Positions 8,760 through 56,853 of a stretch of 64,000 nucleotides of DNA are shown here, piece by piece (the stretch's first letter is position 1; each line of letters opens with the position of its first letter). The translations under genes and the position numbers were made by a program. Source of the stretch: Aliarcobacter butzleri (lineage in GTDB: Bacteria; Campylobacterota; Campylobacteria; Campylobacterales; Arcobacteraceae); NCBI RefSeq assembly GCF_900187115.1, contig NZ_LT906455.1:744001-808000 (forward strand). The letters run 5' to 3'. Below the pieces are notes generated by a model that was given only the letters and a program-made list of their open reading frames with translations, had not been told where the DNA came from and did no database searches.

Positions 8760-8789
8760 AAATAAAAGAAGAAAAATCTTCTTTTATTT
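8760..8789. terminator. Bidirectional terminator between the CheZ-like gene and the heme receptor
   Basis: A 12-bp perfect stem (8760-8771 with 8778-8789) around AAAAAT, followed by T-rich sequence on the plus strand and A-rich sequence for the minus strand. It overlaps the stop codon of the convergent receptor gene. Confidence 0.8.
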
Positions 8790-10976
8790 TTGATTTTCTT
8801 TACAGTGGTATTTTTTTAGATTATTTAAATTTTCAAAAATTTGTGCTAATTTATTTTCAACCTCTTCAGCTTTTTTATTTAAAAATGTATTTTTATCTTT
8901 ATTTGAATTTATTTCAACTAATTCTTGAAGTGTTTTGTGGAAACTTTCATCTAGTTTATTTAATTCTTCTATAAATTCAGAATCTATTTCTTTATTAGAA
9001 GCAGATACATTAGTTAGCCAATTTTTTAGATTTTGATTTTTTTCAATTCTAAAATTGTCATAACTTCCAAGTTTTCCATAAATTCCATCTTTTGTATTTA
9101 ATAAATCTACTTTAATTAAAGCTGTATCATAAACTAAGTCAATATCACAAACTTTATCTAAAGAATCTTCTAAGAATGATGCTCTTGAAGCTACAGTTAT
9201 AAGTGAACTTGACATTGAACTAATATTTGATGTTATTGTTGAAATTTGTTTTGCAATTTCAGTATTTTTATGTATTGCTTTATCCAAAAGAGTAATAGCA
9301 TTTCCAATTTGAACAATACCTTTTTCTTGCTCTTTTGACGAATTAGAAACATCATCAATTGTTTCTAATGTAGTTGCAATATTACCACTTAGCTCAGTAT
9401 ATCCATGTATCATATTATCTGAGATTTTTTTACCTTCTTTTGCCTTATTTGTAGCATTTTCAACTATATCTTTTATTTGTCTAGCTGCTTCAGCACTTCT
9501 ATTTGCAAGATTTCGTACCTCTGCTGCAACAACAGCAAACCCTTTTCCTGCTTCTCCTGCAGTTGCTGCTTCAACTGCTGCATTTAAACTTAAGATATTT
9601 GTTTGAAATGCAATTTGATCAATAACTTCAATAGCTTCATTTATTGAGCTTACTTCTTTGTTTATTTCATCCATAGATAGTGCAGTTTGATTTGCTAAAA
9701 CTTGTCCATTTTTTGCTGAATCTATAAGATTTTGTGCAAGTTTAGACATCTCTACAGTTGAAGTTGTATTATTATGAATTGTTGCTGTGATTTGCTCAAT
9801 TGCAGCAGCTGTTTCAACTAAAGATGCAGATTGTTCATTTGACGAAAGAGATAAATTTTTCGAAGCTTCAGTTAAAGTTTTACTATTTTGGTTTAGAGCA
9901 TTTCCTGCATTCATAATCATAGCTAGAATTTCTGAAGTATTATTACCAACTAATTTTATACCAGATACCAAAGAACCTAAGTTTCCATGAATATTATCAT
10001 TCATAATAAAATCATATTTTGATTCAGAATAGTGTCTTAATGTTTCATTTATTTTATCTAAAGTCTCTTTTATAGTGCTTATCATAATATTCAATTTATT
10101 TTTTAAATCTTCTACGTGAGGATTTGCAGCTTTTGAATTTACATTATAAACAAAGAAACCATTTGATGTTTTTTCTATAACATTGCTAACTTCTTCAATA
10201 ACTTTTTCATCTTGTTTTAAACCATCTCTTACTTTATCCATATAAGCATTGAATAGTTTTGCAACATCACCAATCTCGTCGTTTGATTTGATGTTTAAAT
10301 TGATATTAGAATCATTTGAATTTAAAAGATTTGAAAAACCATCTTTTAAATCATCTATAGGATTTGTTGCTTTTCTAACAATTATAAAGATAAGACCAAT
10401 AGTGATTAAACCTAAGATTAATGACATTATTGAAATATCAGCCACTAAACGACTAATAGAAACATCTACTTCATCTAAAGAGAAAGTTAAGTCCATAACT
10501 CCTATAACATCACCTTCATTTTGATTCGCATGACACATCAAACATTCACTTGTTGCAATCATAGGTTTAATCATTCTTAAAGAGTGACCATTTTTATCAT
10601 CACTTTGAATAATTGACGGTTGTTTTGTTTCAAAAGTTTTTAGAATCTCTTTGTCTGTAGTAAATTGAGTATTTGAAGGATATAATTCAAGTAAAGCTTG
10701 ACTTTTTGCAACAGTTAGATTTTTTACACCTTTTATTTGTCTAGCTTCTTCTTCAGCCTTTGCAATTAGTGCAGGATCTCCTGTATTCATAGTATTTCTT
10801 AGAGTTTGAAACATAGATGCGTTTAGCATCCCTAAATTTTCTTTAGCATTAGCAATAGAATCTTTGGTAACTTTAGATGTAGTTATATATACAATAGTGG
10901 TACTACTAATAAACATCAATGCAAATAGAGCAACTATGATCTTATTACTAATCTTTTTAGTTATAATTTCAAACAT
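8784..10976 (-). CDS. Methyl-accepting chemotaxis protein with a periplasmic c-type heme motif
   Basis: A 730-residue receptor with a first membrane helix (about 13-33) and a second near 181-200. The periplasmic part between them carries CLMCH at 145-149, a covalent heme attachment motif, in a domain of the Tll0287/DUF3365 type, so a redox or gas signal is plausible. A HAMP region follows, then the conserved receptor tip ([32 protein letters not shown] split here at the tip) near residues 460-500. The last 115 residues resemble a zinc-binding CZB domain but most metal ligands are missing. There is no WESF tail. Ligand assignment is inference. Confidence 0.9.
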
Positions 10977-32494: not shown

Positions 32495-35080
32495 ATGTTA
32501 AACGAAACTATAAGTTATAAAGGTATAACTATAAAAAGAGAGTTATATCCAATTATAAAATATATTGAAGATGTAGATAAATATAAAGACGAATTGGGAA
32601 CTTTAAGTTCTTCTTGGGATATGTTAGCACTTTTAGGACAACTTGGTGATATAAACATAGATATAGGAAAAACAAAAGAGAACTTTTTAAATCTAACTTC
32701 AACTTTATTAAATCACTTAAGTTTTCAACAAATAAAAAAAGTAACTCAAGAGATGAGATTTAAGTCACAAGTTACTATTGATGTATTGATTAGAAACTTA
32801 TTTGAAAGAACAGCTGATATAGGATTTTTAGCAACCGATGATGATATTAGACTATTTTTAGAAAACTTTGTGTCAAAATATGATGAAAATAGTCTAGTTA
32901 TAAAACAAGAAATTCAAAAAAAATTCAAAGAATATGTCTCAAAATATTCTGTCTATTTTGATATTGTTTTATTTGATGTTCATGGAAAAATAGTTGTAAG
33001 ATTGAATGAAGATATAAATTTAGAAAAAGTTGATACTTCATTTATTCAAAAAGTTTTAAATACAAGTGATGATTACATCGAAAGTTATAAATATCATGAT
33101 TTCCTTCCTCAATATAAAAAATCATTAGTTTATTCATATAAAGTAACAAAATCAAATGATTCAGGAAGCAAAGATTTAGGAGTTTTAGCTCTTTGTTTTA
33201 GATTTACAGATGAAATGAATGCAATTTTTGGAAATTTAGTAGATACTAAAAATAAAGAGTGTTTAACAATACTAGATGAAGATGGTTATGTAATAGCAAG
33301 TAGTGATAAAGAACATATAAATTTAGGAGTAAAACTTCCTATAGTTTTAAATGAAAACTATAAAATTGTATCTTATGCAGGACGAGACTATATTGCTAAA
33401 ACTTGTGAGACAAATGGTTATCAAGGGTTTTATGGGCTTAAGTGGTATGGACATATTATGATACCTCTTGAATATGCTTTTTTAAGTGATGAACTTAATA
33501 GTTTGGTTGTTGATGAAAATATTATAAATTCTATGATGGAGAATGAACAACATTTTTCAAAAGAGTTAAAAGAAGTTTTTTATAATAGTAAAACAATTCA
33601 AGATAACTTAATAAGAGTTATTTGGAATGGTAATATTGTTCAAAGTAAATTAAACTCAACAAATAGAGAGTTTTCAAGAGCTTTATTAAATGAAATAGGT
33701 ATTACAGGAAATAAAGCAAATTCTTCTTTGGATAATTTAAATCAAACTATTATCTCATCTATACTAAAGGATTGTGAATTTTTATCTTCACTTGCTATTG
33801 ATATTATGGATAGAAATCTTTATGAAAGAGCAAATGATTGTAGATGGTGGGCTTTAAACTCTTATTTTAAAGAAGCTTTAGATGATTATTCAACTATTAG
33901 TGAAAAAAAAGAAGAAATAAGTTCTATTTTAAAATATATAAATGATTTATATACAGTCTATTCAAATCTAATAATTTTTGACAAAAATGGAAAAATTATT
34001 GCTGTTTCAAATGAAAAAGAGCAGTATCTTATTGGAAAAATTTTAACTCAAGATTGGATAGAAAAAACTTTAACTTTAAAAGATACTTCAAAATATTGTG
34101 TTTCAAAATTTGAGAAAACAAATCTTTATGAAAATGAATCAACTTATATATATTGTAGTGCGATACGTTCTTTTAAAGATGATAATGATGTTGTAGGAGG
34201 AATTGCTATTGTTTTTGATTCTTCTGCACAATTTTATACAATGCTTGATGAGATTTTACCAAAAGATATTTATGGAAATAAACAAAAAGGAGTTTATGCT
34301 TTTTTCACTGATAAAAATAAACAAATTATCGCTACAACAAGTACAAACTTTGAAGTAAATTCATATTTGGATATTGATGACTCATTTTTTAAATTGAAAA
34401 ATGGTCAAAACTTAAGTCGTATTATAGAGTTTCGTGGGAATTATTATGCTGTTGGAGTAAAATGTTCAAGTGGATATAGAGAGTATAAAAGTGCAGTTGA
34501 TGATTATAAAAATGATGTTTTATCTTTTGTATTTATACTTATTGGAAAAGCAAATTCAAATGTTATTTTATCTCACTCAAAAACAAAATTTTTAACTTCT
34601 CAAAAAAGAGAATTTATAGGAGAAACTATTGAATTAGCAACTTTTTATTTAGGTAAAAGATTGCTTGCAGTAAATTCAAAAAATGTAATAGAATCTATTG
34701 GAATAGAAGAACTTCAAGAATCAATAGAAATGGATAAGAAAAATCACTTTAAAGGAATGGTTTTACATAAAAATAAACTAATTTCTGTTTTAGATATAAG
34801 AGACTTTGTAAATGAAGAGATAGAAGATGGAACTCTTAAAAATATAATATTAGTAGAATATGATAAAGATAATGTTGAACATTGTGTGGGGCTTTTAGTA
34901 TCATCACTTGAAACTATTTGTACAGTTGAAGAAAAATCAATTCAACATATTCAAAATCACTTTTTAGGAAGTGGAACATTGATTGAAAGTCTTGTAGATA
35001 TAAAAGATAGTGAAGATTCAAAAATTGCAATGCTTTTAAATATTAAAAAGTTAGATGATAACTTCACAAAAAGGGTTTAA
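32495..35080 (+). CDS. Soluble tandem-Cache protein fused to CheW
   Basis: An 861-residue protein without a signal peptide or membrane helix. It has two related sensor modules: one from about 100 to 330 and one from about 440 to 690. Each begins with an almost identical helix, RNLFERTAD (100-108) and RNLYERAND (440-448), followed by Cache/PDC-like strands (VLFDVHGKIVVRL; LIIFDKNGKIIAVS). The last 150 residues (705-855) fit a CheW domain (FYLGKRLLAVNSKNVIESIG, GMVLHKNKLISVLDIRD). There is no methylation or kinase domain, so it probably links a cytoplasmic signal to CheA arrays. Ligand unknown. Confidence 0.8.
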   Translation: MLNETISYKGITIKRELYPIIKYIEDVDKYKDELGTLSSSWDMLALLGQLGDINIDIGKTKENFLNLTSTLLNHLSFQQIKKVTQEMRFKSQVTIDVLIRNLFERTADIGFLATDDDIRLFLENFVSKYDENSLVIKQEIQKKFKEYVSKYSVYFDIVLFDVHGKIVVRLNEDINLEKVDTSFIQKVLNTSDDYIESYKYHDFLPQYKKSLVYSYKVTKSNDSGSKDLGVLALCFRFTDEMNAIFGNLVDTKNKECLTILDEDGYVIASSDKEHINLGVKLPIVLNENYKIVSYAGRDYIAKTCETNGYQGFYGLKWYGHIMIPLEYAFLSDELNSLVVDENIINSMMENEQHFSKELKEVFYNSKTIQDNLIRVIWNGNIVQSKLNSTNREFSRALLNEIGITGNKANSSLDNLNQTIISSILKDCEFLSSLAIDIMDRNLYERANDCRWWALNSYFKEALDDYSTISEKKEEISSILKYINDLYTVYSNLIIFDKNGKIIAVSNEKEQYLIGKILTQDWIEKTLTLKDTSKYCVSKFEKTNLYENESTYIYCSAIRSFKDDNDVVGGIAIVFDSSAQFYTMLDEILPKDIYGNKQKGVYAFFTDKNKQIIATTSTNFEVNSYLDIDDSFFKLKNGQNLSRIIEFRGNYYAVGVKCSSGYREYKSAVDDYKNDVLSFVFILIGKANSNVILSHSKTKFLTSQKREFIGETIELATFYLGKRLLAVNSKNVIESIGIEELQESIEMDKKNHFKGMVLHKNKLISVLDIRDFVNEEIEDGTLKNIILVEYDKDNVEHCVGLLVSSLETICTVEEKSIQHIQNHFLGSGTLIESLVDIKDSEDSKIAMLLNIKKLDDNFTKRV

Positions 35081-36933: not shown

Positions 36934-37575
36934 TTATGCTAATGCGTTAAACATATCAGCTGTAACTTCTGAAACATCTTTTGTTCCATCAAGTTCCATA
37001 AATACACCCATTTTTTTATAAAAATCAATAAGTGGTGCAGTTTGTGTATGATATGCGTCAAGTCTGCTAATAACAGTTTGCGCATTATCATCTTTTCTAA
37101 TAATTAATTCACCACCACAATAATCACATACATTTTCTTCTTTTGATGGATTAAATTCTACATGGAAAGATGCTCCACATTTAGAACATACTCTTCTTCC
37201 TGTAATTCTTCCAACGATTAATTCATCAGGAACATTTAAAGAGATTACTTTATCAAGAGAGATTTTCATAGATGACATTAATTCGCTTAAAGCTTCAGCT
37301 TGTGCTAAAGTTCTTGGAAATCCATCAAGAATAAAACCATTTTTACAGTCAGCTTCTGCAAGTCTATCTTTAATAATTCCAATAATTGTCGAATCTGGAA
37401 CTAACTGTCCAGCATCCATAAATTTTTTTGCTTCCATTCCCATATCTGTTTTATCTGCAATAGCAGCTCTTAAAATATCACCTGTTGAGATTTGAGGAAT
37501 ATTATATTTTTCGATTAAGAACTTTGCTTGAGTTCCTTTACCAGCTCCTGGTGCTCCAAATAGCATTAAATTCAT
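36934..37575 (-). CDS. adk: Adenylate kinase, long form with zinc LID
   Basis: A 213-residue adenylate kinase: P-loop GAPGAGKGTQAKF (7-19), the NMP-binding STGDILRAAI, GFILDGFPRTLAQAEAL, and a LID with four cysteines (CSKC and CDYC, 16 residues apart) that binds zinc. It interconverts ATP plus AMP and two ADP. It is convergent with the YgiQ gene and divergent from a second, shorter adenylate kinase. Confidence 0.96.
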   Translation of the reverse strand: MNLMLFGAPGAGKGTQAKFLIEKYNIPQISTGDILRAAIADKTDMGMEAKKFMDAGQLVPDSTIIGIIKDRLAEADCKNGFILDGFPRTLAQAEALSELMSSMKISLDKVISLNVPDELIVGRITGRRVCSKCGASFHVEFNPSKEENVCDYCGGELIIRKDDNAQTVISRLDAYHTQTAPLIDFYKKMGVFMELDGTKDVSEVTADMFNALA

Positions 37576-37704: not shown

Positions 37705-38274
37705 ATGAAAAAATTATTTTTAATTATTGGAGCTCCTGGTTCTGGTAAAACTACCGATGCAGAATTAATTGCTTCAAAATATACTAATGTAACTCACTAT
37801 TCAACTGGAGATATGTTTAGAGCAGAAGTAGCTAGTGGAAGTCAAAGAGGTCAAATAATTGATACTTATATAAAAGCTGGAAATATAGTACCAATTGATA
37901 TTGCAATTGAAACTATTCTAATGGCTATTAAAAATGCACCAACAGATATTATTGTTATTGATGGATACCCAAGAAGTATTGAGCAAATGTTGGAATTAGA
38001 TAAATATTTAGAAAAAGAAGATGCAGTAAAATTACTAAATTGTATAGAAGTTGAAGTATCTGAAGAAGTAGCAAGAGATAGGGTTCTTGGTCGTTCAAGA
38101 GGTGCTGATGATAATATTGAAGTATTTAATAATAGAATGAAAGTTTATAAAGAGCCTTTAGAGCAGATAAAAGAATTTTATTCAAAAAGAGGTTTATTAA
38201 AAATAATAAATGGTGAAGGCACTATAAAAGAGATTGTTGATGAAATGGATACATTTATACAATCGAGAATCTAA
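37705..38274 (+). CDS. Adenylate kinase, short LID-less form
   Basis: A 189-residue nucleoside monophosphate kinase: P-loop GAPGSGKTTDAEL, STGDMFRAEVASGSQRG, IVIDGYPRSIEQM and GRSRGADDNIEVFNNRMKVY. The LID is reduced to a short loop without cysteines, as in the main Adk of Campylobacter. Two adenylate kinase types side by side is unusual. It may supply AMP phosphorylation or prefer another nucleotide. It overlaps the following gene by one base. Confidence 0.88.
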   Translation: MKKLFLIIGAPGSGKTTDAELIASKYTNVTHYSTGDMFRAEVASGSQRGQIIDTYIKAGNIVPIDIAIETILMAIKNAPTDIIVIDGYPRSIEQMLELDKYLEKEDAVKLLNCIEVEVSEEVARDRVLGRSRGADDNIEVFNNRMKVYKEPLEQIKEFYSKRGLLKIINGEGTIKEIVDEMDTFIQSRI

Positions 38275-42191: not shown

Positions 42192-44453
42192 TTAATTTAT
42201 TTTATCTTTTCCAATAAACTCTTTTTCATTTGCTTTACTTACAATTAAATTTGCTATGTTATCTGTAGAAACTGCAATTTCTTGAGTTTGAGATGCAATA
42301 GAAGCATTTTGTTGTGTTTGTTGGTCTAGTTGATTTATTGCATGATTTATTTGTTCAATACCTAAAAGTTGTTCTCTTGAAGAATTTTCAATATCATAAA
42401 TCAATTTTGTAGAGTTAGAAATATTTGTATTTAACTCTTTATAACCATTTATCATATTATTAGCTATCTCTTTACCTTCATTAGTTTTTAAAGTTGCATT
42501 TTCTACTATAGTTTTTATTTCTCTAGCAGCTTCAGCACTTCTATTTGCTAGGTTTCGCACCTCTTGTGCAACAACAGCAAATCCTTTTCCAGCTTCTCCA
42601 GCAGTTGCAGCTTCAACAGCAGCATTTAGTGAAAGAATATTTGTTTGGAAAGCTATGTTATCAATAACTGAAATGGCTTCATTTATTTCTGTTACTTGAT
42701 TGTTGATATCATCCATTGCTTGAGTTGTTTTACTTGCAAGTTTTTCACCTTCTATTGCAGAATTTGTCAACTCTTTTGAGAATTTTGACATTTTTGAAAC
42801 ATTTTGCGTATTATTTCTAATATTTGAAGTAATTTGCTCTAAAGAAGCTGCAGTTTGTTCTAAAGAAGCTGCTGCTTCATTTGAACTAGTATTTAGTTTA
42901 TCAACATTTGTTAATAATACATTTGAGCTTTTTCTTAGTGTTAAACCATTTGATTTATTTTCAACTAACATTTCAGTTATCGAATCACCTAAAATATTTA
43001 CTCCATTTGCAAGATTTAAAAGATGTTCTTTTAAATCTTTTGTTGAAATCTTATTTAAATAGTTATAGTGAGAATACTCTTCTAAAATATGTAAAACATT
43101 ATCGATATTTGATTCAAGAGTATTTGCCATATTATTTAAAACATTTTTTAGTTGCATTAAAGCTGGATTTGAAACTTCTATATTTAATCTTTGGCATAAA
43201 TCACCTTGTTCAAATTCACCTAATACTGCTATTGTTTCATCTATTAGTTTTCTATCTTCATCAATTGATTTCTCAATCTTTTCTATATTTTCATTTATCT
43301 GTTTTGCAATAACTCCAAATTCATCTTCTGTATCAATATTTATTTTTTCAGCGTGAACAATTTCTCTATTTAAATATTCAAAGAAAGATAAAAGACCATC
43401 TTTTATTTTTTTAAGAGATCTTAGTGAAATTCTCATTGTTATAAATATTGATAAAGATATTATAACTACTGTTATAATAGATAAAGTTATGATTAAAACC
43501 ATTATTTTATTCGCATCTGCAAATATTTCACTTGAATTAACACCACCTACTAAAAGCCAATTCCACTCTTCAAAGTTTTCAAATACTACAAACTTTTCAC
43601 CTTCATTCCAAAGATAAGTTAATTCACCATTTTTAGCTTTTAACATCTCTTTTACTATCAATAGACCATTTTTATCAGTTAGCTCTAATCCTGAAGTATC
43701 TTTTAGTTTTGGATGAATTATAAAATTACCATATTTTGAATCTTTTTCATTAGAATTTACAATATAGTAATAACCAGTTTTTCCAATAACTTTGCTATTT
43801 ATTGTTTGTGTTAAATTATCTAAATCTTTGCTAATATCAGAACCTATAAATGCAATTGCAATAACTTCACCATCTTGTTTTATTGGAATATACTTTGTCA
43901 TATAGTTTTTCCCAAATAATGTAGCTTTTCCTAAATAAGTCTCACCTTGTAATACTTTTTTATACCCAGGATGATTGATGTCTAGTTTTGTACCAATTGC
44001 TCTATTTCCATCTTCTTTTTTCAAACTTGTTGAAATTCTTATGAAATCATCACCTTTTCTTACAAAAATAGTTGCAACTGAACCATTTGTCATTTCAGTA
44101 AATTTATCAACAATATCAAAGTTAAGGTTTAAAGCTTTACCATTTATTGATAAAACAGGTGTTTGTAAATCTCCAACTTTTATGTTTTGAGATTTATCTA
44201 TTTTTATTCCTTGAAGCATATCTAAAAATATATTACCTATTGTGTCTGCTCCAGTTTTTGCTACTTTATTAAAAGTATTAATATTTTCAACTAATAAAGA
44301 TATCTCTTTATGTACTGTACTTTCAGTATTTTTTTTCATTGCTTCAAAAGTATTATTTGATACTAAAAAAGTTAAAATACTCATAGAAATGATAATAGAA
44401 ATAATCGATACAAAAATTACTTTTGCAATTACTGATTTTTTTAAAAAATCCAT
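42192..44453 (-). CDS. Methyl-accepting chemotaxis protein, Cache_3-Cache_2 type
   Basis: A 753-residue receptor. A membrane helix at about 10-30 precedes a long periplasmic sensor resembling the Cache_3-Cache_2 fusion ([48 protein letters not shown]). The second helix near 320 is followed by HAMP-like repeats and the receptor tip ([20 protein letters not shown]). It ends [10 protein letters not shown] and lacks the roughly 40-residue tail with WESF found in the four receptors further on. Ligand unknown. Confidence 0.93.
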
Positions 44454-47608: not shown

Positions 47609-50005
47609 ATGAAAAAATTAAATTTTGGAACTAAATTGTTGTTAGTTTTAGTTTCAATCACGGCAGTTTCTTTAAGTTTAATGATATATATAATATCTTC
47701 AAACACTTTTGAATCTTTGAAAAATCAATCTCAAGAGTATGTTAATGAAATGGCTAAAAGTAACGCTTTAGAAATAAGAAATACGCTTGACAAAGCTATT
47801 GTTATCTCAAATAATATAGCAAACAGATATGAAAGTGCGATTGAGCATAATGAAAAACTTTCAAAAGAGGGGACTATAAAATATTTAAAAGAAGTGTTAA
47901 ATCAAAATAAGTTTTTATTAGGTGTTTGGTTCACTTTTGAAGATGGAACACTTGTTTATACAAAAAATGATGGTTCAGATAAAACAAACTATTATACTAA
48001 AGATGGAGTATTTCAACCTTATGTTGTAAGAAATAGTGATGGTTCTTTTACTATTCAACCTTCATCAGATTTTAGTTTAGAATCAGAATGGATAAATAAG
48101 CCATATAAAAATAAAGAAGTATCTATAACAGAACCATATAATTATGAAATAGATGGAAAAAATGTACTTTTAACAACAGTTTCATCGCCTGTTTATTATA
48201 AAGGAAAATTTGTAGGTGCCGTTGGAGTAGATTTTTCTTTAGACTTTTTTAACAAAAAAATAGGTGAGATTAAATTGTTTGAAAATGGATATGGAGCATT
48301 ATTTGATAACTATGGAAAATTTATAGCTCATCCAAAACCTGAAAATATAGGTAAATATATAAAAGATGTAACAAAAAATGAAACTATATTAAATGCAATT
48401 GAAAAAAGTAAAAATGGTGAAAAAAATTCATATTTTGCTAAAAATCTAAAAACAGGAACAGACTCTTATAACTATGTATATCCAATACAATTTGGAGATA
48501 CAAAAAATTATTGGACATTTATAGCAACTGCTCCTGAAAGTGAGTATTTAAGTGAAGCTAGTTTTGTTAGAAACTTTTCTATTGTTGCGGGTATAGTTGT
48601 TTTATCTATAATCATTTTTGTGATACTAATTAGTATGAGAATATTAAATAAAAATTTAACAATAATAAAAGATGGACTTTTAGGATTCTTCTCTTTCTTA
48701 AATAAAGAAGAAAAGAAAGCTCATTTAATAGAGTTAGATTCTCAAGATGAATTTGGGCAAATGGCAAAAGTGATAAACGAGAATATCAAAAAAACTGAAA
48801 GTTTGATACTTCAAGATAATATTTTAATAGATGATGTAAAAAGAGTAGTTGATGAGGTGAAAGCAGGTTATTTAGATAAAAGAATTGAAAAATCTACTCA
48901 AAATGAGAGTTTAGAAGAGCTAAAAAATAATTTCAATGGAATGCTAGAAATTACAAAACAAAATATCTGTATAGATATAAATAAGGTTGTAGCAGTATTA
49001 GATAGTTTTGGAAAACTTGATTTTAGACCTAAAATAGAAAATGATAATGGAAAAGTTGCAGTTGGTATAAATAACCTAGCAACAATCATCAATGAAATGC
49101 TAGTAGAGAATAAAACAAATGGATTAACATTGGATAAAAGCTCAAATGTATTATTAGCAAATGTAGATAAATTAAACCTAAGCTCGAATGAAGCAGCAGC
49201 AAGTTTAGAAGAGACAGCAGCAGCTCTAGAAGAAGTAACTTCAAATGTAAGAAATAATACACAAAATATAGCACAAATGGCAAAACTATCAACAGAAGTA
49301 ACAGCCTCTGCTAACCAAGGTGAAAAATTAGCAAATGAAACAACAGTTGCTATGGATGAAATAAATAATCAAGTTAATTTGATTAATGAAGCAATAGGTG
49401 TAATCGATAATATAGCATTCCAAACAAATATCCTTTCTTTAAATGCAGCTGTAGAAGCAGCAACTGCTGGAGAAGCAGGAAAAGGATTTGCAGTTGTTGC
49501 AGGAGAAGTAAGAAATCTAGCATCTAGGAGCGCAGAAGCAGCAAGAGAAATAAAAACAATAGTTGAAAATGCAACAAGTAAAGCAAATCAAGGTAAAAGT
49601 ATCGCAACAAATATGATAGAAGGATATAAAGAGTTAAATCAAAATATTTCTCAAACAATAAGCTTGATAAGTGATATACAAAACGCAAGTAAAGAACAAT
49701 TGCTTGGAATTGAACAAATAAATGATGCAGTAACACAATTAGATAGACAAACACAACAAAATGCAATGATAGCAAGTCAAACACATGATGTAGCATTGAT
49801 AACAGATGAGATATCAAAACTAATAGTAAGTGATGCAGATGCAAAAGAGTTTGTTGGTAAACATGATGTTAAAGCTAAAAATGTAAATGTAGGAACAAAT
49901 AATAAACAAATACATGAAGTAGAGAAGAAAATAGTATCACCAACAAAAAAAGATACAAAAGTAGTATCATCTAAAACTAACGACAATGAATGGGAAAGCT
50001 TTTAG
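47609..50005 (+). CDS. Methyl-accepting chemotaxis protein, dCache type (tandem receptor 1)
   Basis: A 798-residue receptor. Membrane helices lie at about 8-30 and 318-340. The periplasmic part is a double Cache domain (GVWFTFEDGTLVYTKND, ITEPYNYEIDGKNVLLTTVSSPVYY, FVGAVGVDFSL; GYGALFDNYGKFIAHPKPENIG). After HAMP-like segments comes the methylation and tip region. The C-terminus is EWESF, a match to the docking pentapeptide for the methylation enzymes. Its last 780 bp or so are shared with receptor 3. AGAGG precedes the ATG. Confidence 0.95.
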   Translation: MKKLNFGTKLLLVLVSITAVSLSLMIYIISSNTFESLKNQSQEYVNEMAKSNALEIRNTLDKAIVISNNIANRYESAIEHNEKLSKEGTIKYLKEVLNQNKFLLGVWFTFEDGTLVYTKNDGSDKTNYYTKDGVFQPYVVRNSDGSFTIQPSSDFSLESEWINKPYKNKEVSITEPYNYEIDGKNVLLTTVSSPVYYKGKFVGAVGVDFSLDFFNKKIGEIKLFENGYGALFDNYGKFIAHPKPENIGKYIKDVTKNETILNAIEKSKNGEKNSYFAKNLKTGTDSYNYVYPIQFGDTKNYWTFIATAPESEYLSEASFVRNFSIVAGIVVLSIIIFVILISMRILNKNLTIIKDGLLGFFSFLNKEEKKAHLIELDSQDEFGQMAKVINENIKKTESLILQDNILIDDVKRVVDEVKAGYLDKRIEKSTQNESLEELKNNFNGMLEITKQNICIDINKVVAVLDSFGKLDFRPKIENDNGKVAVGINNLATIINEMLVENKTNGLTLDKSSNVLLANVDKLNLSSNEAAASLEETAAALEEVTSNVRNNTQNIAQMAKLSTEVTASANQGEKLANETTVAMDEINNQVNLINEAIGVIDNIAFQTNILSLNAAVEAATAGEAGKGFAVVAGEVRNLASRSAEAAREIKTIVENATSKANQGKSIATNMIEGYKELNQNISQTISLISDIQNASKEQLLGIEQINDAVTQLDRQTQQNAMIASQTHDVALITDEISKLIVSDADAKEFVGKHDVKAKNVNVGTNNKQIHEVEKKIVSPTKKDTKVVSSKTNDNEWESF
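49095..49875 (+). repeat. Long direct repeat, copy 1 (shared with 53571-54351)
   Basis: By eye these 781 bases equal those at 53571-54351, a shift of 4476 bp, with no difference found in line-by-line comparison. They code for the receptor tip of receptors 1 and 3. The first difference after the block is T/G at 49876/54352, and similarity continues through the stop and hairpin. Confidence 0.9.
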
Positions 50006-50012
50006 GCTTTCC
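49993..50012 (+). terminator. Hairpin formed by the WESF codons of receptor 1
   Basis: GGAAAGC (49993-49999, part of the Trp-Glu-Ser codons) pairs with GCTTTCC (50006-50012). The loop is the last Phe codon plus the stop codon. A pyrimidine-rich stretch follows. Confidence 0.65.
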
Positions 50013-50192
50013 TCTACCCTTTATTTATCTAACTTATAATAATTTATTACAATTTTTTATTTTAAAAAAATCAATAAACTCTTCATACTAAAAAAATATT
50101 TTATTTCAGATTTCCTCTGATTCCTCAGATTTTGCTAGTAGTTTACTTACATTCTAATATTATAATTACTTAATTAATTTAGGAGATAAAAA

Positions 50193-50258
50193 ATGTTTTT
50201 TAAATTTAAAAATAAAAGTAAAGTTACTCGAGTTAGTAGAATTAAAAAAAGTAAATAA
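50193..50258 (+). CDS. Very small basic peptide (21 residues)
   Basis: An ATG with AGGAG seven bases upstream opens a frame for 21 residues, MFFKFKNKSKVTRVSRIKKS and a final K. There are nine basic and no acidic residues. TATAAT occurs at 50161-50166, a good distance for a promoter. I recognise no family. It may be a real small protein or a leader. Confidence 0.4.
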   Translation: MFFKFKNKSKVTRVSRIKKSK

Positions 50259-50350
50259 TCAGCTAAAAAGTAATAATGATAAAGTTATTTTTAAATCTTA
50301 ATTTTAAGAAACATTATTAATAAAAGGACTCGATTTTATCGTTATTTTAA

Positions 50351-50367
50351 TAGCATTCAAATAGCAT
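50351..50367 (+). repeat. TAGCAT direct repeat upstream of receptor 2
   Basis: TAGCAT at 50351-50356 and 50362-50367, 11 bases apart, lies 25-40 bp before a -10 box. This is the geometry of a tandem response-regulator site. No regulator is assigned. Confidence 0.3.
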
Positions 50368-50391
50368 CGCATAAAATGAGATTTTTTATTA

Positions 50392-50397
50392 TATAAT
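50392..50397 (+). promoter_or_regulatory. -10 box for receptor 2
   Basis: TATAAT lies 41 nt before the ATG at 50439, preceded by a T run (ATTTTTTATTA). AGGAGAAGG is the ribosome site. Confidence 0.5.
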
Positions 50398-50438
50398 TAT
50401 AAATAGGATATGAATTTACCAGTTAATAGGAGAAGGAA

Positions 50439-52442
50439 ATGAGCATAAAAAATAAAATAATGGGTGCATTTTTAATATTAATAGTTGTATCAATAATAAG
50501 CAGTTTATTGGTCTCTTTTAATATAAAAAATATCAATAATAACACAGATAATTTAGCGGAAAAAGATTTTGCTGGTATTACAGTATTATTAGAAGCAGAT
50601 AGGGACTCTTATCAATCAAATTTGGCTTTGAGTCAAATAATGAATCTAAAAGATAATCAACAAATTGAAAAGCTAATAACAAAAGGTGTAGAAGATAATT
50701 TATCACAAATTAGACAAAGATTTGATAAGTTTAAAGGATTTTTAAAAGATGAATTGTCTTCTAAATCAAAAGAGTTAGATGATTTTGACAAATATTATAA
50801 TTTAACAAAAAGTAATACTCAAACATTAATTAAGCTAGTAAAAGATGGAAAAATAGATGACGCAAAAACATTTTATTTTTCAACATACTCAAAAGATTAT
50901 GAGTCTATGAGAGACATAATAGATTTTTTTAGTGATGAGACTTATAAGATTGTTGAGAAAAATAAAATTGAAGTTGAGTCACTAATATCTTCATCTTTAA
51001 ATACTTTTGTGAGTATAACAATATTAACAATATTAATAACACTATTTTTCTCATATGCAATTAGTAAAACATTTAATAATTCAATTAAAAAATTACAAAA
51101 TGGTTTACTAGAATTTTTCAATTTTTTAAATAAAGAGACAAAAAGTGTTTCATTATTAGATACTTCTTCAAAAGATGAAATAGCTCAAATTTCAGAAGTA
51201 ATAAATAAAAATATAATAAAAACTGAAAACTTGATAGTTCAAGATAACCTATTAATTGAAGATGTAAAAGCTGTTGTAAGTGCAGTAAATGATGGTAAAT
51301 TTACTAAACGAATAGAAAAATCAACTGAAAATCAAAATCTTGAAGAGCTAAAAAATATTTTTAATGAAATGTTAGAAAGTACAAAAAATAGTGTAGCAAA
51401 AGATATAAATGAACTATTAAAAGTTTTAGATAACTTTGCAAAACTAGACTTCAAAGAGAGAATCCAAGACAATGGAAAAGTTGCAGTTGGTATTAATAAT
51501 CTAGTAGAAACAATAACACAAATGTTAGTTGAAAATAAATCAAACGGATTAACATTAAGAGAGAGTTCAGATATATTATTAGCAAATGTAGATAAATTAA
51601 ATATAAGTTCAAATGAAGCAGCAGCATCTTTAGAAGAAACAGCAGCAGCTTTAGAAGAAGTAACTTCGAATATTAGAAATAATACTCAAAATATAGCACA
51701 AATGGCAAAACTATCAAGTGAAGTAACAACTTCTGCAAATCAAGGTGAAAAATTAGCAAATGAAACAACAGTTGCAATGGATGAGATAAACAATCAAGTT
51801 CATTTAATAAACGATTCTATTTCAGTAATAGACCAAATAGCATTTCAAACAAATATTCTTTCTCTTAATGCTGCTGTTGAAGCGGCAACTGCTGGAGAAG
51901 CTGGAAAAGGATTTGCAGTAGTTGCACAAGAGGTGCGAAACCTAGCAAGTAGAAGTGCTGAAGCTGCAAAAGAGATAAAAGCAATAGTTGAAAATGCTAC
52001 AAGTAAAGCAAATCAAGGTAAAGAAATAGCGACAAATATGATAGATGGATACAAAGAGTTAAATCAAAATATCTCTCAAACAATAAATCTAATCTCAGAT
52101 ATAGAGATGTCAAGTAAAGAGCAATTAGCTGGTATTGAGCAAATAAATGATGCCGTAACACAATTAGATAGACAAACACAGCAAAATGCAGCAGTGGCAA
52201 ATCAAACAAACGATGTTGCAGCAATAACGGATGAAATAGCAAAATTAATCGTTTCAAGTGCTGATGAAAAAGAGTTTATAGGAAAACATGAAGTTAAGGC
52301 AAAAAAGATAAATTCAAATAAGGAGAGTTTTACTACAACTAAGAAATCAAGTTCAAAAATAGTAGAAAAAAATGAGGTATCAAAAAAAGATACAAAAGTG
52401 GTATCAGCAAAAACAAACAGTGATGAATGGGAAAGCTTTTAG
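50439..52442 (+). CDS. Methyl-accepting chemotaxis protein, four-helix-bundle type (tandem receptor 2)
   Basis: A 667-residue receptor with membrane helices at about 8-28 and 188-208 and an all-helical periplasmic part of about 155 residues, as in 4HB receptors. The cytoplasmic half has the segment [23 protein letters not shown]-like repeats and the tip [20 protein letters not shown], and ends DEWESF. The WESF codons form only a weak hairpin here, and receptor 3 follows after 41 bp, so the two are probably co-transcribed. Confidence 0.94.
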
Positions 52443-52483
52443 GCTTTTATAAAAAATTAAAATTAGAATAAAGGGAAGAAAAA

Positions 52484-54478
52484 ATGCTTAAGAATTTAAA
52501 GGTATCGAAGAAACTTTTTACAGGTTTTGGGATAATAGTAGGTTTAGTTATCATATTAGGGATACTTTCAACACAAAAGATGTCAACAGTAAATGACCAA
52601 TCAACAATAATCTCAGAAAATTGGTTACCAAGCGTGGTAATAACAAATAAAATTAATACAGCAACATCTGATTATAGAATACTTGAATACGATCATATCT
52701 TATCAAAAACAGATGAAGAGATGACAAAGAATGAAGCAAAAATGAAAGAGCTGTTAGATATTATGAAAAAAGATCTTGAAAAATATGAAAAATTAATCTC
52801 TTCAGAAAATGAAAAAGCAATCTATGCAGATTTTTCAAAAGAGTTTAATAAATATTTAAAAATGCATGATGAGCTAATAGCTGTTTCAAGAGATAACAGA
52901 ACAGACGATGCTTTAAAACTAATTAGAGAAAGTACAGTAGTGTATGACAGTTTTTCTACAGATTTATCAAAATTGGTTAATTTAAATGTAAAAGGTGCAC
53001 AAGATGCAAGTGCAAATGGAGATGAGATTTACTCAAATTCAAAAGTTTTACTTATAACTATTATTTCTATTGTTATTTTATTTTCAGTACTTATTGCATT
53101 TTTTATTACAAACTCAATTGTTATTTCTCTTAAAAATTTACAAGACGGATTATTTAGCTTTTTTGCATACCTAAACCGAGAATCAACAAAAGTAGAGTTA
53201 ATAAACTTAGACTCAAAAGATGAGTTTGGAGAGATGGCAAAAGTAGTAAACCACAATATAGAAAGAACACAAAAAGGGATAGAAGAAGATAGAAAACTAA
53301 TAGATGAAGCAATATCAGTATTAGGAGAATTTGAACAAGGAGATTTATCTCAAAGATTAAATATTAGTGTTAATAATCCAGCTTTAACTCAATTAAAAGA
53401 AGTTCTAAATAAAATGGCTTCTAATTTAGAAAATAATATAGCTGGTGTACTAAAAGTATTAGAACAATACTCTAATTATAATTACTTAAATAAAATAGAC
53501 CAAAAAGGTTTAAAAGAACATCTTCTAAAACTATCAAATGGTGTAAATACTTTGGGTGATTCAATAACACAAATGCTAGTAGAGAATAAAACAAATGGAT
53601 TAACATTGGATAAAAGCTCAAATGTATTATTAGCAAATGTAGATAAATTAAACCTAAGCTCGAATGAAGCAGCAGCAAGTTTAGAAGAGACAGCAGCAGC
53701 TCTAGAAGAAGTAACTTCAAATGTAAGAAATAATACACAAAATATAGCACAAATGGCAAAACTATCAACAGAAGTAACAGCCTCTGCTAACCAAGGTGAA
53801 AAATTAGCAAATGAAACAACAGTTGCTATGGATGAAATAAATAATCAAGTTAATTTGATTAATGAAGCAATAGGTGTAATCGATAATATAGCATTCCAAA
53901 CAAATATCCTTTCTTTAAATGCAGCTGTAGAAGCAGCAACTGCTGGAGAAGCAGGAAAAGGATTTGCAGTTGTTGCAGGAGAAGTAAGAAATCTAGCATC
54001 TAGGAGCGCAGAAGCAGCAAGAGAAATAAAAACAATAGTTGAAAATGCAACAAGTAAAGCAAATCAAGGTAAAAGTATCGCAACAAATATGATAGAAGGA
54101 TATAAAGAGTTAAATCAAAATATTTCTCAAACAATAAGCTTGATAAGTGATATACAAAACGCAAGTAAAGAACAATTGCTTGGAATTGAACAAATAAATG
54201 ATGCAGTAACACAATTAGATAGACAAACACAACAAAATGCAATGATAGCAAGTCAAACACATGATGTAGCATTGATAACAGATGAGATATCAAAACTAAT
54301 AGTAAGTGATGCAGATGCAAAAGAGTTTGTTGGTAAACATGATGTTAAAGCGAAAAATATGAATATGGGAACAAATAATAAGCAAATACATGAAGTAGAG
54401 AAGAAAATAGTACCAACAAAAAAAGATACAAAAGTAGTATCATCTAAAACTAATGACAATGAATGGGAAAGCTTTTAG
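52484..54478 (+). CDS. Methyl-accepting chemotaxis protein, four-helix-bundle type (tandem receptor 3)
   Basis: A 664-residue receptor: membrane helices near 10-30 and 188-210, a helical periplasmic domain, then the GLFSFFAYLNREST segment, a further HAMP-like part and the tip. From residue about 363 the DNA is identical to receptor 1 for about 780 bp, then slightly divergent with one 3-base deletion. Its sensor half is unrelated to receptor 1, so the shared part has been moved or homogenised as a block. It ends NEWESF. AAGGGAAG precedes the ATG. Confidence 0.94.
   Translation: MLKNLKVSKKLFTGFGIIVGLVIILGILSTQKMSTVNDQSTIISENWLPSVVITNKINTATSDYRILEYDHILSKTDEEMTKNEAKMKELLDIMKKDLEKYEKLISSENEKAIYADFSKEFNKYLKMHDELIAVSRDNRTDDALKLIRESTVVYDSFSTDLSKLVNLNVKGAQDASANGDEIYSNSKVLLITIISIVILFSVLIAFFITNSIVISLKNLQDGLFSFFAYLNRESTKVELINLDSKDEFGEMAKVVNHNIERTQKGIEEDRKLIDEAISVLGEFEQGDLSQRLNISVNNPALTQLKEVLNKMASNLENNIAGVLKVLEQYSNYNYLNKIDQKGLKEHLLKLSNGVNTLGDSITQMLVENKTNGLTLDKSSNVLLANVDKLNLSSNEAAASLEETAAALEEVTSNVRNNTQNIAQMAKLSTEVTASANQGEKLANETTVAMDEINNQVNLINEAIGVIDNIAFQTNILSLNAAVEAATAGEAGKGFAVVAGEVRNLASRSAEAAREIKTIVENATSKANQGKSIATNMIEGYKELNQNISQTISLISDIQNASKEQLLGIEQINDAVTQLDRQTQQNAMIASQTHDVALITDEISKLIVSDADAKEFVGKHDVKAKNMNMGTNNKQIHEVEKKIVPTKKDTKVVSSKTNDNEWESF
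53571..54351 (+). repeat. Long direct repeat, copy 2 (shared with 49095-49875)
   Basis: Second copy of the 781-base identical block, within receptor 3. The upstream border is at an AATGCTAGTAGAG stretch where the coding sequence for the HAMP end meets the methylation region. Confidence 0.9.
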
Positions 54479-54485
54479 GCTTTCC
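54466..54485 (+). terminator. Hairpin formed by the WESF codons of receptor 3
   Basis: GGAAAGC (54466-54472) pairs with GCTTTCC (54479-54485) around the Phe and stop codons, followed by TCTTCCCTTTT. It is better than the receptor 1 copy as a terminator. Confidence 0.7.
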
Positions 54486-54828
54486 TCTTCCCTTTTAAAT
54501 AAATATATTTTGTTTACTATAATCAATATTATTTAATAATAATCTTATTTAAATAATAAAATTTATCTAAAAAATAATTATTCAAATAAATAAAAAAACT
54601 TAAATAAAATATTATTTAATCTTTATAAGAATATTTTTTAATATCAATTATTTTGTTATTACTTAGTTGATATATCGATAAATAATAAAATAAAAAATCT
54701 ATATATTTTCTCTTTTAAATCTTATTATAAAATAATTATAAAGTAATTGGCAAATTAATAGAAAGATAAGATAAGATAAGATAATAATTTTTAGAGCTAA
54801 AAAAATAATTTAAATTGAAGGGGATAAA
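54479..54828. other. 350-bp AT-rich intergenic region between receptors 3 and 4
   Basis: The stretch is around 85-90% A+T and contains no convincing gene. It has a tandem GATAA repeat at 54765-54784 and several TATAAT-like boxes. GAAGGGG before the ATG at 54829 is the ribosome site. Confidence 0.6.
54765..54784 (+). repeat. Four tandem GATAA units
   Basis: GATAA is repeated four times without interruption, 45 bp before the receptor 4 start and probably in its leader or promoter. Such 5-base repeats can change length by slippage. Confidence 0.7.
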
Positions 54829-56853
54829 ATGAGTTTTCTAAGAAACTTAAAGGTTAAATCAAAGTTATTATTAATTTTGATAGTGTTTACTGTTGTTGCT
54901 ATTACTATTTCATGGCGAGGATTATCTACATCATCATTATTAAATAGTGAAATTACCGATATTATAGATACAAATGTTCCAAGAATTGAGTTTGCAAATC
55001 AAATTACAATTGCTTTAATGTCTATGCAAAGAGTTGAAAAAAATGCAATTTTAGCTGAAAATGATGAAGAGACAAAAAAATATATTGATAGATTTGAAGA
55101 GTATGATAAAAGATTTGATGCTATGGCAAAAGAATTGAGTGCTGTAGCTTCAAAAGAGGGGAAAGAGTTTTTACAAAGATGTATTGATAGTAAAAACAAA
55201 TATGCCAAAATTGCAAATGAAATATTTGATTTAACTTTAGCAAAAAATAATAGTGAAGCAATACTATTGTCTCAAACTAAAGGAAGAGAAGAAGTTGATA
55301 ATTGTGAGAATCTTTTAAATCAACTTGTAATGATGAATAAGGAAATGTTAAAACAAAAAGATGAAATAACAAACAAATTATATGAGAGTTCAAGAGATAT
55401 AATAATAGCAATATCTATAATAGGTATTTTAATAACAATTGTTTTATCTTTATTGATTTCTTCAATGTTAGTAAATGCTTTAACAGTTTTTAAAGATGGA
55501 CTATTTAGTTTCTTTGCTTATTTAAACCGAGAATCAACAAAAGCAGAATTAATAAACCTAGACTCAAAAGATGAATTTGGACAAATGGCAAAAGTGGTAA
55601 ATGAGAATATAGTAAAAACACAAAAAGGAATAGAAGAAGATAGAAAACTAATAGATGAAACAATAGCAGTATTAGGTGAATTTGAACAAGGTGACCTTTG
55701 CCAAAGATTAAACCTAAGTGTTTCAAACCCAGCATTGATGCAGTTAAAAGAAGTTCTAAATAATATGGCTTCTAATTTAGAGAATAATATAGATAATGTA
55801 TTAAAAGTATTAGAACAATATAGTAACTATAATTACTTAAATAAAATAGACCAAAAAGGTTTAAAAGAACACCTTTTAAAACTAGCAAGTGGTGTAAATA
55901 ACTTAGGTGACTCAATAACGCAAATGTTAATCGATAATAAAACAAATGGATTAACTTTAGATAAAAGCTCTAATATTTTATTAGCAAATGTAGATAAACT
56001 AAACCTAAGCTCAAATGAAGCAGCAGCATCTTTAGAAGAAACAGCAGCTGCTTTAGAAGAGATAACAAGTAATATAAGAAATAATACAGAGAGTATTGCA
56101 AAAATGGCAAGTTACTCTAGTAATGTAACAGCTTCCGCAAATCAAGGTGAAAAATTAGCAAATGAAACAACAGTTGCTATGGATGAAATAAATAATCAAG
56201 TTAATTTGATTAATGAAGCAATAAGTGTTATAGATCAAATAGCATTTCAAACAAATATTCTTTCTTTAAATGCAGCAGTTGAAGCAGCAACAGCAGGAGA
56301 AGCAGGAAAAGGATTTGCAGTTGTTGCTCAAGAAGTGCGAAACCTAGCATCAAGAAGCGCAGAAGCAGCAAAAGAGATAAAAGCAATAGTTGAAAATGCT
56401 ACAAGTAAAGCAAATCAAGGGAAACAAATAGCGACAAATATGATAGAAGGTTATAAAGAATTAAATCAAAACATCATAAATACAATTAACTTAATTTCTG
56501 ATATTGAAATGTCAAGTAAAGAACAATTATCAGGAATAGAGCAGATAAATGTAGCTGTAACGCAACTTGACCAACAAACACAACAAAATGCAAATGTAGC
56601 AATGCAAACTCATACAATTTCTACTATGACAGACCAAATAGCTAAATTGATTGTTTCTAGTGCTGATGAAAAAGAGTTTATTGGAAAAAATGAAGTAAAA
56701 GGTAAAGATATTAATGAATCAAAAGAGTTGAATAATAATCAAAAAGTAAAATCATTAAATTCGCCATTTGTAAATAAAAAGAGTTCAAATAAATCAGAAA
56801 AAGATACAAAAGTAGTATCTAAAAATAATGATAATGATTGGGAAAGCTTTTAA
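54829..56853 (+). CDS. Methyl-accepting chemotaxis protein, four-helix-bundle type (tandem receptor 4)
   Basis: A 674-residue receptor with membrane helices near 12-30 and 187-210 and a helical periplasmic domain. The cytoplasmic half matches receptors 2 and 3 ([37 protein letters not shown], tip near residue 480) but is not identical in DNA. It ends NDWESF. The convergent response regulator gene lies 7 bp away. Confidence 0.94.
   Translation: MSFLRNLKVKSKLLLILIVFTVVAITISWRGLSTSSLLNSEITDIIDTNVPRIEFANQITIALMSMQRVEKNAILAENDEETKKYIDRFEEYDKRFDAMAKELSAVASKEGKEFLQRCIDSKNKYAKIANEIFDLTLAKNNSEAILLSQTKGREEVDNCENLLNQLVMMNKEMLKQKDEITNKLYESSRDIIIAISIIGILITIVLSLLISSMLVNALTVFKDGLFSFFAYLNRESTKAELINLDSKDEFGQMAKVVNENIVKTQKGIEEDRKLIDETIAVLGEFEQGDLCQRLNLSVSNPALMQLKEVLNNMASNLENNIDNVLKVLEQYSNYNYLNKIDQKGLKEHLLKLASGVNNLGDSITQMLIDNKTNGLTLDKSSNILLANVDKLNLSSNEAAASLEETAAALEEITSNIRNNTESIAKMASYSSNVTASANQGEKLANETTVAMDEINNQVNLINEAISVIDQIAFQTNILSLNAAVEAATAGEAGKGFAVVAQEVRNLASRSAEAAKEIKAIVENATSKANQGKQIATNMIEGYKELNQNIINTINLISDIEMSSKEQLSGIEQINVAVTQLDQQTQQNANVAMQTHTISTMTDQIAKLIVSSADEKEFIGKNEVKGKDINESKELNNNQKVKSLNSPFVNKKSSNKSEKDTKVVSKNNDNDWESF

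Follow-up and report, generated by a model that had tools for sequence, protein, structure and literature searches.

The input to bacterial chemotaxis is normally credited to the chemoreceptors. The locus described here raises the question of whether a soluble protein, in which two sensor domains are followed by a CheW domain, could convey an internal signal to the kinase CheA. The gene lies in a 64,000-nucleotide stretch of Aliarcobacter butzleri DNA (contig NZ_LT906455.1, positions 744,001 to 808,000, hereafter the window), where it occupies positions 32495..35080 of the forward strand, from the ATG at 32495 to the stop codon at 35078-35080. It is an intact open reading frame of 861 codons, the opposite strand being closed, and the sole copy in the 2.35-Mb genome; full-length homologs occur in four phyla.

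Genomic setting and the chemotaxis proteins of the cell

The encoded protein is soluble and has the architecture dCache-dCache-CheW. A Pfam scan detected in it neither MCP, receiver or kinase domains, nor a PF00015 match indicative of an MCP signaling hairpin, nor any match to the CheR family, and a search of its sequence against the PDB returned chance matches only. In the Arcobacteraceae the gene has one conserved place, flanked on one side by a radical-SAM gene and on the other by aspS, often together with one small gene; it stands as an orphan beside aspS, and at the loci read no che operon surrounds it. A clue to the ligand from operon structure is ruled out, the neighbors differing in nearly every lineage and being mostly housekeeping-like genes. 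The gene is absent from a dozen congeners, and in another (G030) the same syntenic place holds a decayed remnant with several in-frame stops (L180:7392-7989, i.e., G030:C6:27391-27988); it is therefore dispensable in the genus.

Elsewhere in the window four methyl-accepting chemotaxis protein (MCP) genes lie consecutively on one strand (47609-56853), with a fifth nearby at 42192-44453 (-) and a sixth at 8784-10976 (-), and two adenylate-kinase-like genes adjoin on opposite strands between 36934 and 38274, namely at 36934-37575 (-) and 37705-38274 (+).

The genome as a whole encodes one CheA, one CheW, one CheV and 30 MCPs, so that CheW domains are found in four proteins, the fourth being the dCache-CheW protein; none of the MCPs holds a further copy of this sensor. 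The CheA gene is one of several consecutive che genes, consistent with the cheYARDB operon, of class F7, described for Arcobacter (PMC9321776). CheA is present in 45 of the 46 tested genomes carrying the tandem sensor, the exception being a metagenome bin, a co-occurrence of little weight because the groups that carry the sensor are motile and nearly all have CheA anyway.

Anatomy and origin of the protein

The initial annotation had singled out two modules beginning with a near-identical helix, RNLFERTAD at residues 100-108 and RNLYERAND at 440-448, and both positions are correct. This resemblance is not due to chance, because the two motifs vary little or not at all among 62 diverse homologs and the two units align profile to profile. 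Over the whole protein, the dCache_1 family (PF02743) is matched in two stretches with an E-value of 1.2e-15 and 58.1 bits against a cut-off of 45; the single units (1.5e-07 and 31.7 bits for unit 1, 2.2e-09 and 37.6 bits for unit 2) score under this whole-protein cut-off, which they exceed jointly.

The full-length AlphaFold model, built from the 62 homologs (pLDDT 81.6), yields Foldseek matches to CheW (6s1k_C, 3.4e-09; 2ch4_Y) and to dCache domains. Because such a search does not tell which of the two units was matched, residues 1-345 were also modeled alone (pLDDT 84.7), and the matches listed by Foldseek for this part are dCache-type sensors, with DctB (3e4p, 1.2e-10) at the top. The models and the Foldseek matches indicate that in each unit two PAS-like modules come after a long helix. 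Thus, the Cache folds anticipated at residues 95-335 and 435-695 are there, both units being dCache-like by Pfam, AlphaFold and Foldseek, but these limits were too narrow, since the long helices 57-113 and 391-452 belong to the units, which when widened span about 57-328 and 391-690.

Read from its N-terminus (all coordinates on the plus strand), the protein begins with a segment (residues 1-56, 32495..32662) modeled by AlphaFold as two short strands and helices 15-21 and 25-50, with a mean pairwise identity of 40%. Sensor unit 1 (residues 57-328, 32663..33478), assigned from the Foldseek search of residues 1-345, the dCache_1 match and homology to unit 2, contains the signature helix RNLFERTADIGFLATD (residues 100-115, 32792..32839), mostly invariant or nearly invariant in the 62 homologs. 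The connector (residues 329-390, 33479..33664) has in the AlphaFold model a helix at 356-385 and bears the motif W377-N-G-N380, of which W377, N378 and G379 are invariant in the same set. Unit 2 (residues 391-690, 33665..34564), identified from the model and from the dCache_1 match at 452-625, contains the signature helix DIMDRNLYERANDCRWWAL (residues 436-454, 33800..33856), in which every residue from I437 to L454 is invariant and which is also common to the soluble MCP-tip proteins considered below.

The proposed internal duplication is borne out by hhalign, the profiles of the two units aligning over 235 columns with a probability of 98.9 and an E-value of 1.7e-17. Furthermore, in a maximum-likelihood tree all first units (S1) form one group and all second units (S2) another, each with support of 100/99 and with CheW-less forms included, so that the duplication predates the spread of the family; the branches are long and details within the two groups are unsure. 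The tandem sensor is the product of one ancient duplication. The connector is not homologous to an MCP tip, as judged by hhalign against shuffles. The idea that the hairpins preceding each dCache are degenerate MCP tips, which came from the MCP-tip-dCache relatives and from inspection by eye, was rejected, hhalign giving probabilities of at most 2.5% with scores that column shuffles also reach and the positive control reaching 99.6% and 1.6e-23.

That the C-terminus is CheW is agreed upon by Pfam, Foldseek and a profile search of the PDB. The CheW-like domain extends over residues 711-853 (34625..35053, plus strand), PF01584 being matched at 714-853 with 1.3e-11 and 44.7 bits (cut-off 23.5), and the C-terminal profile retrieves from the PDB CheW structures only, with E-values down to 3.7e-15. 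Among the proteins of its own genome, the domain is closest to stand-alone CheW (5.9e-18), followed by CheV (3.4e-08) and CheA (2.4e-04). Within it, only F717 and G754 are invariant in the 62 homologs, and the NLRG receptor-contact motif appears from the alignment to be partly eroded, the equivalent of E. coli Arg62 being Lys or Arg in 39 of 60 sequences and the next Gly being found in 14 of 60.

Cellular location, spread and relatives of the family

The first reading of the gene, that neither a signal peptide nor a membrane helix is visible, stands: the best 19-residue hydropathy is 1.64 and falls in a predicted strand, compared with a family median of 1.42 and with values above 1.9 in 27 of the 30 MCPs of the same genome. 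Hydropathy exceeds 1.8 in 3 of 102 family members, the two highest peaks lying at the end of unit 2, at about residue 680, where a strand is modeled in the A. butzleri protein; the long N-terminal extensions of some translated ORFs reflect the choice of an upstream start (e.g., L024). The periplasmic setting between two membrane helices that is usual, if not universal, for dCache_1 is thus absent from this protein. A cytosolic dCache_1-type lineage is unusual, since in a census of Cache domains, about 78% of which were confidently predicted to be extracellular, the principally intracellular families were only Diacid_rec and YkuI_C (PMC4822843).

Far from being an isolated case, the Cache-Cache-CheW architecture with no receptor domain belongs to a conserved family with hundreds of relatives in at least four phyla. 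Matches were found in 29 of 60 related genomes, in 38 of 298 genomes of the class and in 18 of 150 genomes of a betaproteobacterial set, and scanning of genome contigs gave 574 confirmed candidate stretches, of which the best 80 are nearly all full length. The taxa are Campylobacterota, Pseudomonadota (Beta- and Gammaproteobacteria), Thermodesulfobacteriota and Deferribacterota. Two further loci may be recorded here: a second paralog, about 42% identical, in which an in-frame stop splits the CheW part to give 812 + 77 amino acids (L178:5616-8294, genome G021), and one of two paralogs near a gene fragment of 270 amino acids with a CheA dimerization domain on the other strand (L173:5120-9685, genome G031).

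Mean pairwise identity amounts to 0.51 and 0.50 in the two sensor units and to 0.30 in the CheW domain, and the residues invariant in the 62 homologs cover both units, PAS-like cores included. This stronger conservation of the sensors, with their many invariant residues, suggests one shared cytosolic ligand, which would be identical or similar from member to member. Membership of the amino-acid-binding dCache_1 subfamily, with its core motif Yx4RxW[YF], was rejected, the motif being absent from 102 of 102 family sequences.

Two kinds of relatives lack the complete architecture. The first are tandem forms devoid of CheW, of about 617-708 amino acids, found in several Campylobacterota. In one genome (G056) cheV starts 22 bp downstream of such a gene and in another (G049) it lies two genes upstream; as a general rule this association was discarded, these being two cases only among about 15. 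In three related Campylobacterota genomes the CheW-less genes (L149:5943-8224, L150:5695-8045 and L152:6028-8457) are immediately followed by a gene for a 99-aa protein and one for a large ATPase, which together resemble clpS-clpA, and a link between the tandem sensor and protein degradation through these neighbors is possible.

The second kind are soluble proteins of about 345 amino acids, encoded on plasmids or large replicons in such bacteria as Burkholderia, Caballeronia and Methylobacterium, in which an MCP signaling tip (PF00015, 1e-15 to 1e-16) precedes one dCache. Their dCache aligns by hhalign with the units of the dCache-CheW protein at 7.9e-26 (unit 1) and 1.5e-31 (unit 2), the signatures RNLYERxxDxRWWATD and GYETYxGLGWYG being shared; they differ in having one dCache instead of two and in docking to the array through an N-terminal MCP tip instead of a C-terminal CheW. 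In them the same cytosolic sensor class is connected to the array through a different part, which represents its second link to the array. Three of them (L181:3279-4319, L183:3189-4217 and L184:3168-4202) are minimal soluble chemoreceptors, with N-terminal MCP tip and C-terminal dCache, annotated as "MCP" only.

A proposed metabolic input beside the receptors

The reading that we consider fairly probable is that of a soluble sensor-adaptor, in which the dCache units sense a metabolite, CheW docks in the array and the activity of the single CheA is altered. In terms of mechanism, the two cytoplasmic units would bind an intracellular small molecule, as their conservation suggests; the C-terminal domain would let the protein take the place of CheW in the F7 chemoreceptor array; and the ligand-bound protein would alter the activity of the only CheA kinase of the genome, thereby providing an internal metabolic input parallel to the 30 chemoreceptors, by analogy with CheWS and S-adenosylmethionine (SAM). 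An effect of a metabolite on the CheA array by way of CheW is plausible, in that it fits the anatomy of the family, the single CheA system and the CheWS precedent (PMC10653840). The sensor-adaptor reading is further favored by the higher conservation of the sensors relative to CheW, by the closeness of the domain to stand-alone CheW and by the second link through the MCP tip; against it stand the partly eroded NLRG motif, the location of the gene outside any che operon at the loci read, the metagenome bin that showed no CheA, and the CheW-less forms, most of which lack a cheV neighbor. The wording of the initial annotation, that this would occur "without a receptor", may be too strong, because the CheW rings of arrays are built on receptors, and "beside the receptors" is safer.

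In PMC10653840, CheWS (TDE1492) of Treponema denticola is described as a soluble SAM-binding domain on CheW that reads the intracellular metabolite; the protein is reported to bind CheA, to be anchored to the array and to alter behavior, and it is called the first characterized CheW-fused chemotaxis sensor, more being expected. CheWS has its CheW at the N-terminus and a CheR-like SAM domain at the C-terminus, whereas in the present protein a tandem dCache sensor precedes a C-terminal CheW, in a family that covers at least four phyla. CheW-CZB and CheW-PAS, named in the same paper, likewise fuse a soluble sensor to CheW, with folds other than dCache. Cache is unnamed in the main text of that study, and dCache-CheW may be among the 30 undescribed architectures of its Fig. 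S10; a literature search found no description of a Cache fused to CheW, apart from a possible mention in surveys of CheW architectures, and the searched passages of two surveys of Arcobacter chemotaxis genes (PMC9321776, PMC2147049) do not mention such a protein. CheV (CheW-REC) is comparable as a CheW-like adaptor with an extra regulatory domain, and its gene lies near a CheW-less form in two genomes; its extra domain is a receiver, whereas that of dCache-CheW is a tandem sensor, no receiver appearing in the Pfam scan. DctB, Tlp3 and PctA have the dCache fold in common with our protein but are membrane-flanked and periplasmic, whereas the latter has neither membrane helix nor amino-acid motif; the known Cache domains predicted to be intracellular share its location and differ from it in Cache family and output. 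Thus, the principle of CheW-fused sensing is precedented by CheWS, and what differs is the sensor class, the tandem layout and the breadth.

Could the CheW domain have left the CheA array to bind another partner, making the protein a soluble sensor with a non-chemotaxis output? The domain is the least conserved part of the protein, with its two invariant residues and eroded NLRG motif, and several Campylobacterota lineages have tandem forms without CheW, the genes of three of which immediately precede the clpS-clpA-like genes; all this would suit such a departure. It is nevertheless rather unlikely, given the clear CheW fold, the profile match to canonical CheW at E-values down to 3.7e-15 and the retention of the domain across four phyla, and no partner of CheW-type domains is well known outside the arrays. 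Nor is it likely that the dCache units are structural or protein-binding elements and the protein a scaffold, or a brake competing with CheW. Many invariant residues do lie on long helices, as would be expected of surfaces for dimerization or packing, and the dCache_1 receptor motif is missing throughout the 102 sequences, but the PAS-like cores of both units are conserved too, simple competition would not need two units, and many characterized dCache domains bind ligands. As to export or membrane attachment, with sensing of the outside as by ordinary Cache domains, the prevalence of extracellular members in the census (PMC4822843) speaks for it, yet signal peptide and membrane helix are absent from the protein and its family and CheW works in the cytoplasm, so that this explanation is hardly credible.

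Returning to the sensor-adaptor, what is new is the sensor class on CheW and its unexpected breadth; the anatomy is confirmed, and the mechanism is plausible and precedented. A wider, more tentative proposal is that of a widespread class of cytosolic sensors embedded in the array, in which one dCache lineage, duplicated early, would respond in many phyla to one central metabolite or one molecule reflecting the energy state; its docking part would be exchangeable (CheW, an MCP tip or, perhaps, a CheV encoded nearby), and CheA would receive an input independent of receptors. Because the sensor is strongly conserved across phyla, the question of the ligand can be put to the test in any convenient member, and the single-dCache MCP-tip proteins, whose ligand may be identical, provide another system for it. 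If a conserved sensor-adaptor does operate in hundreds of genomes, signals from within the cell would have a second and common way into the array, via its CheW positions.
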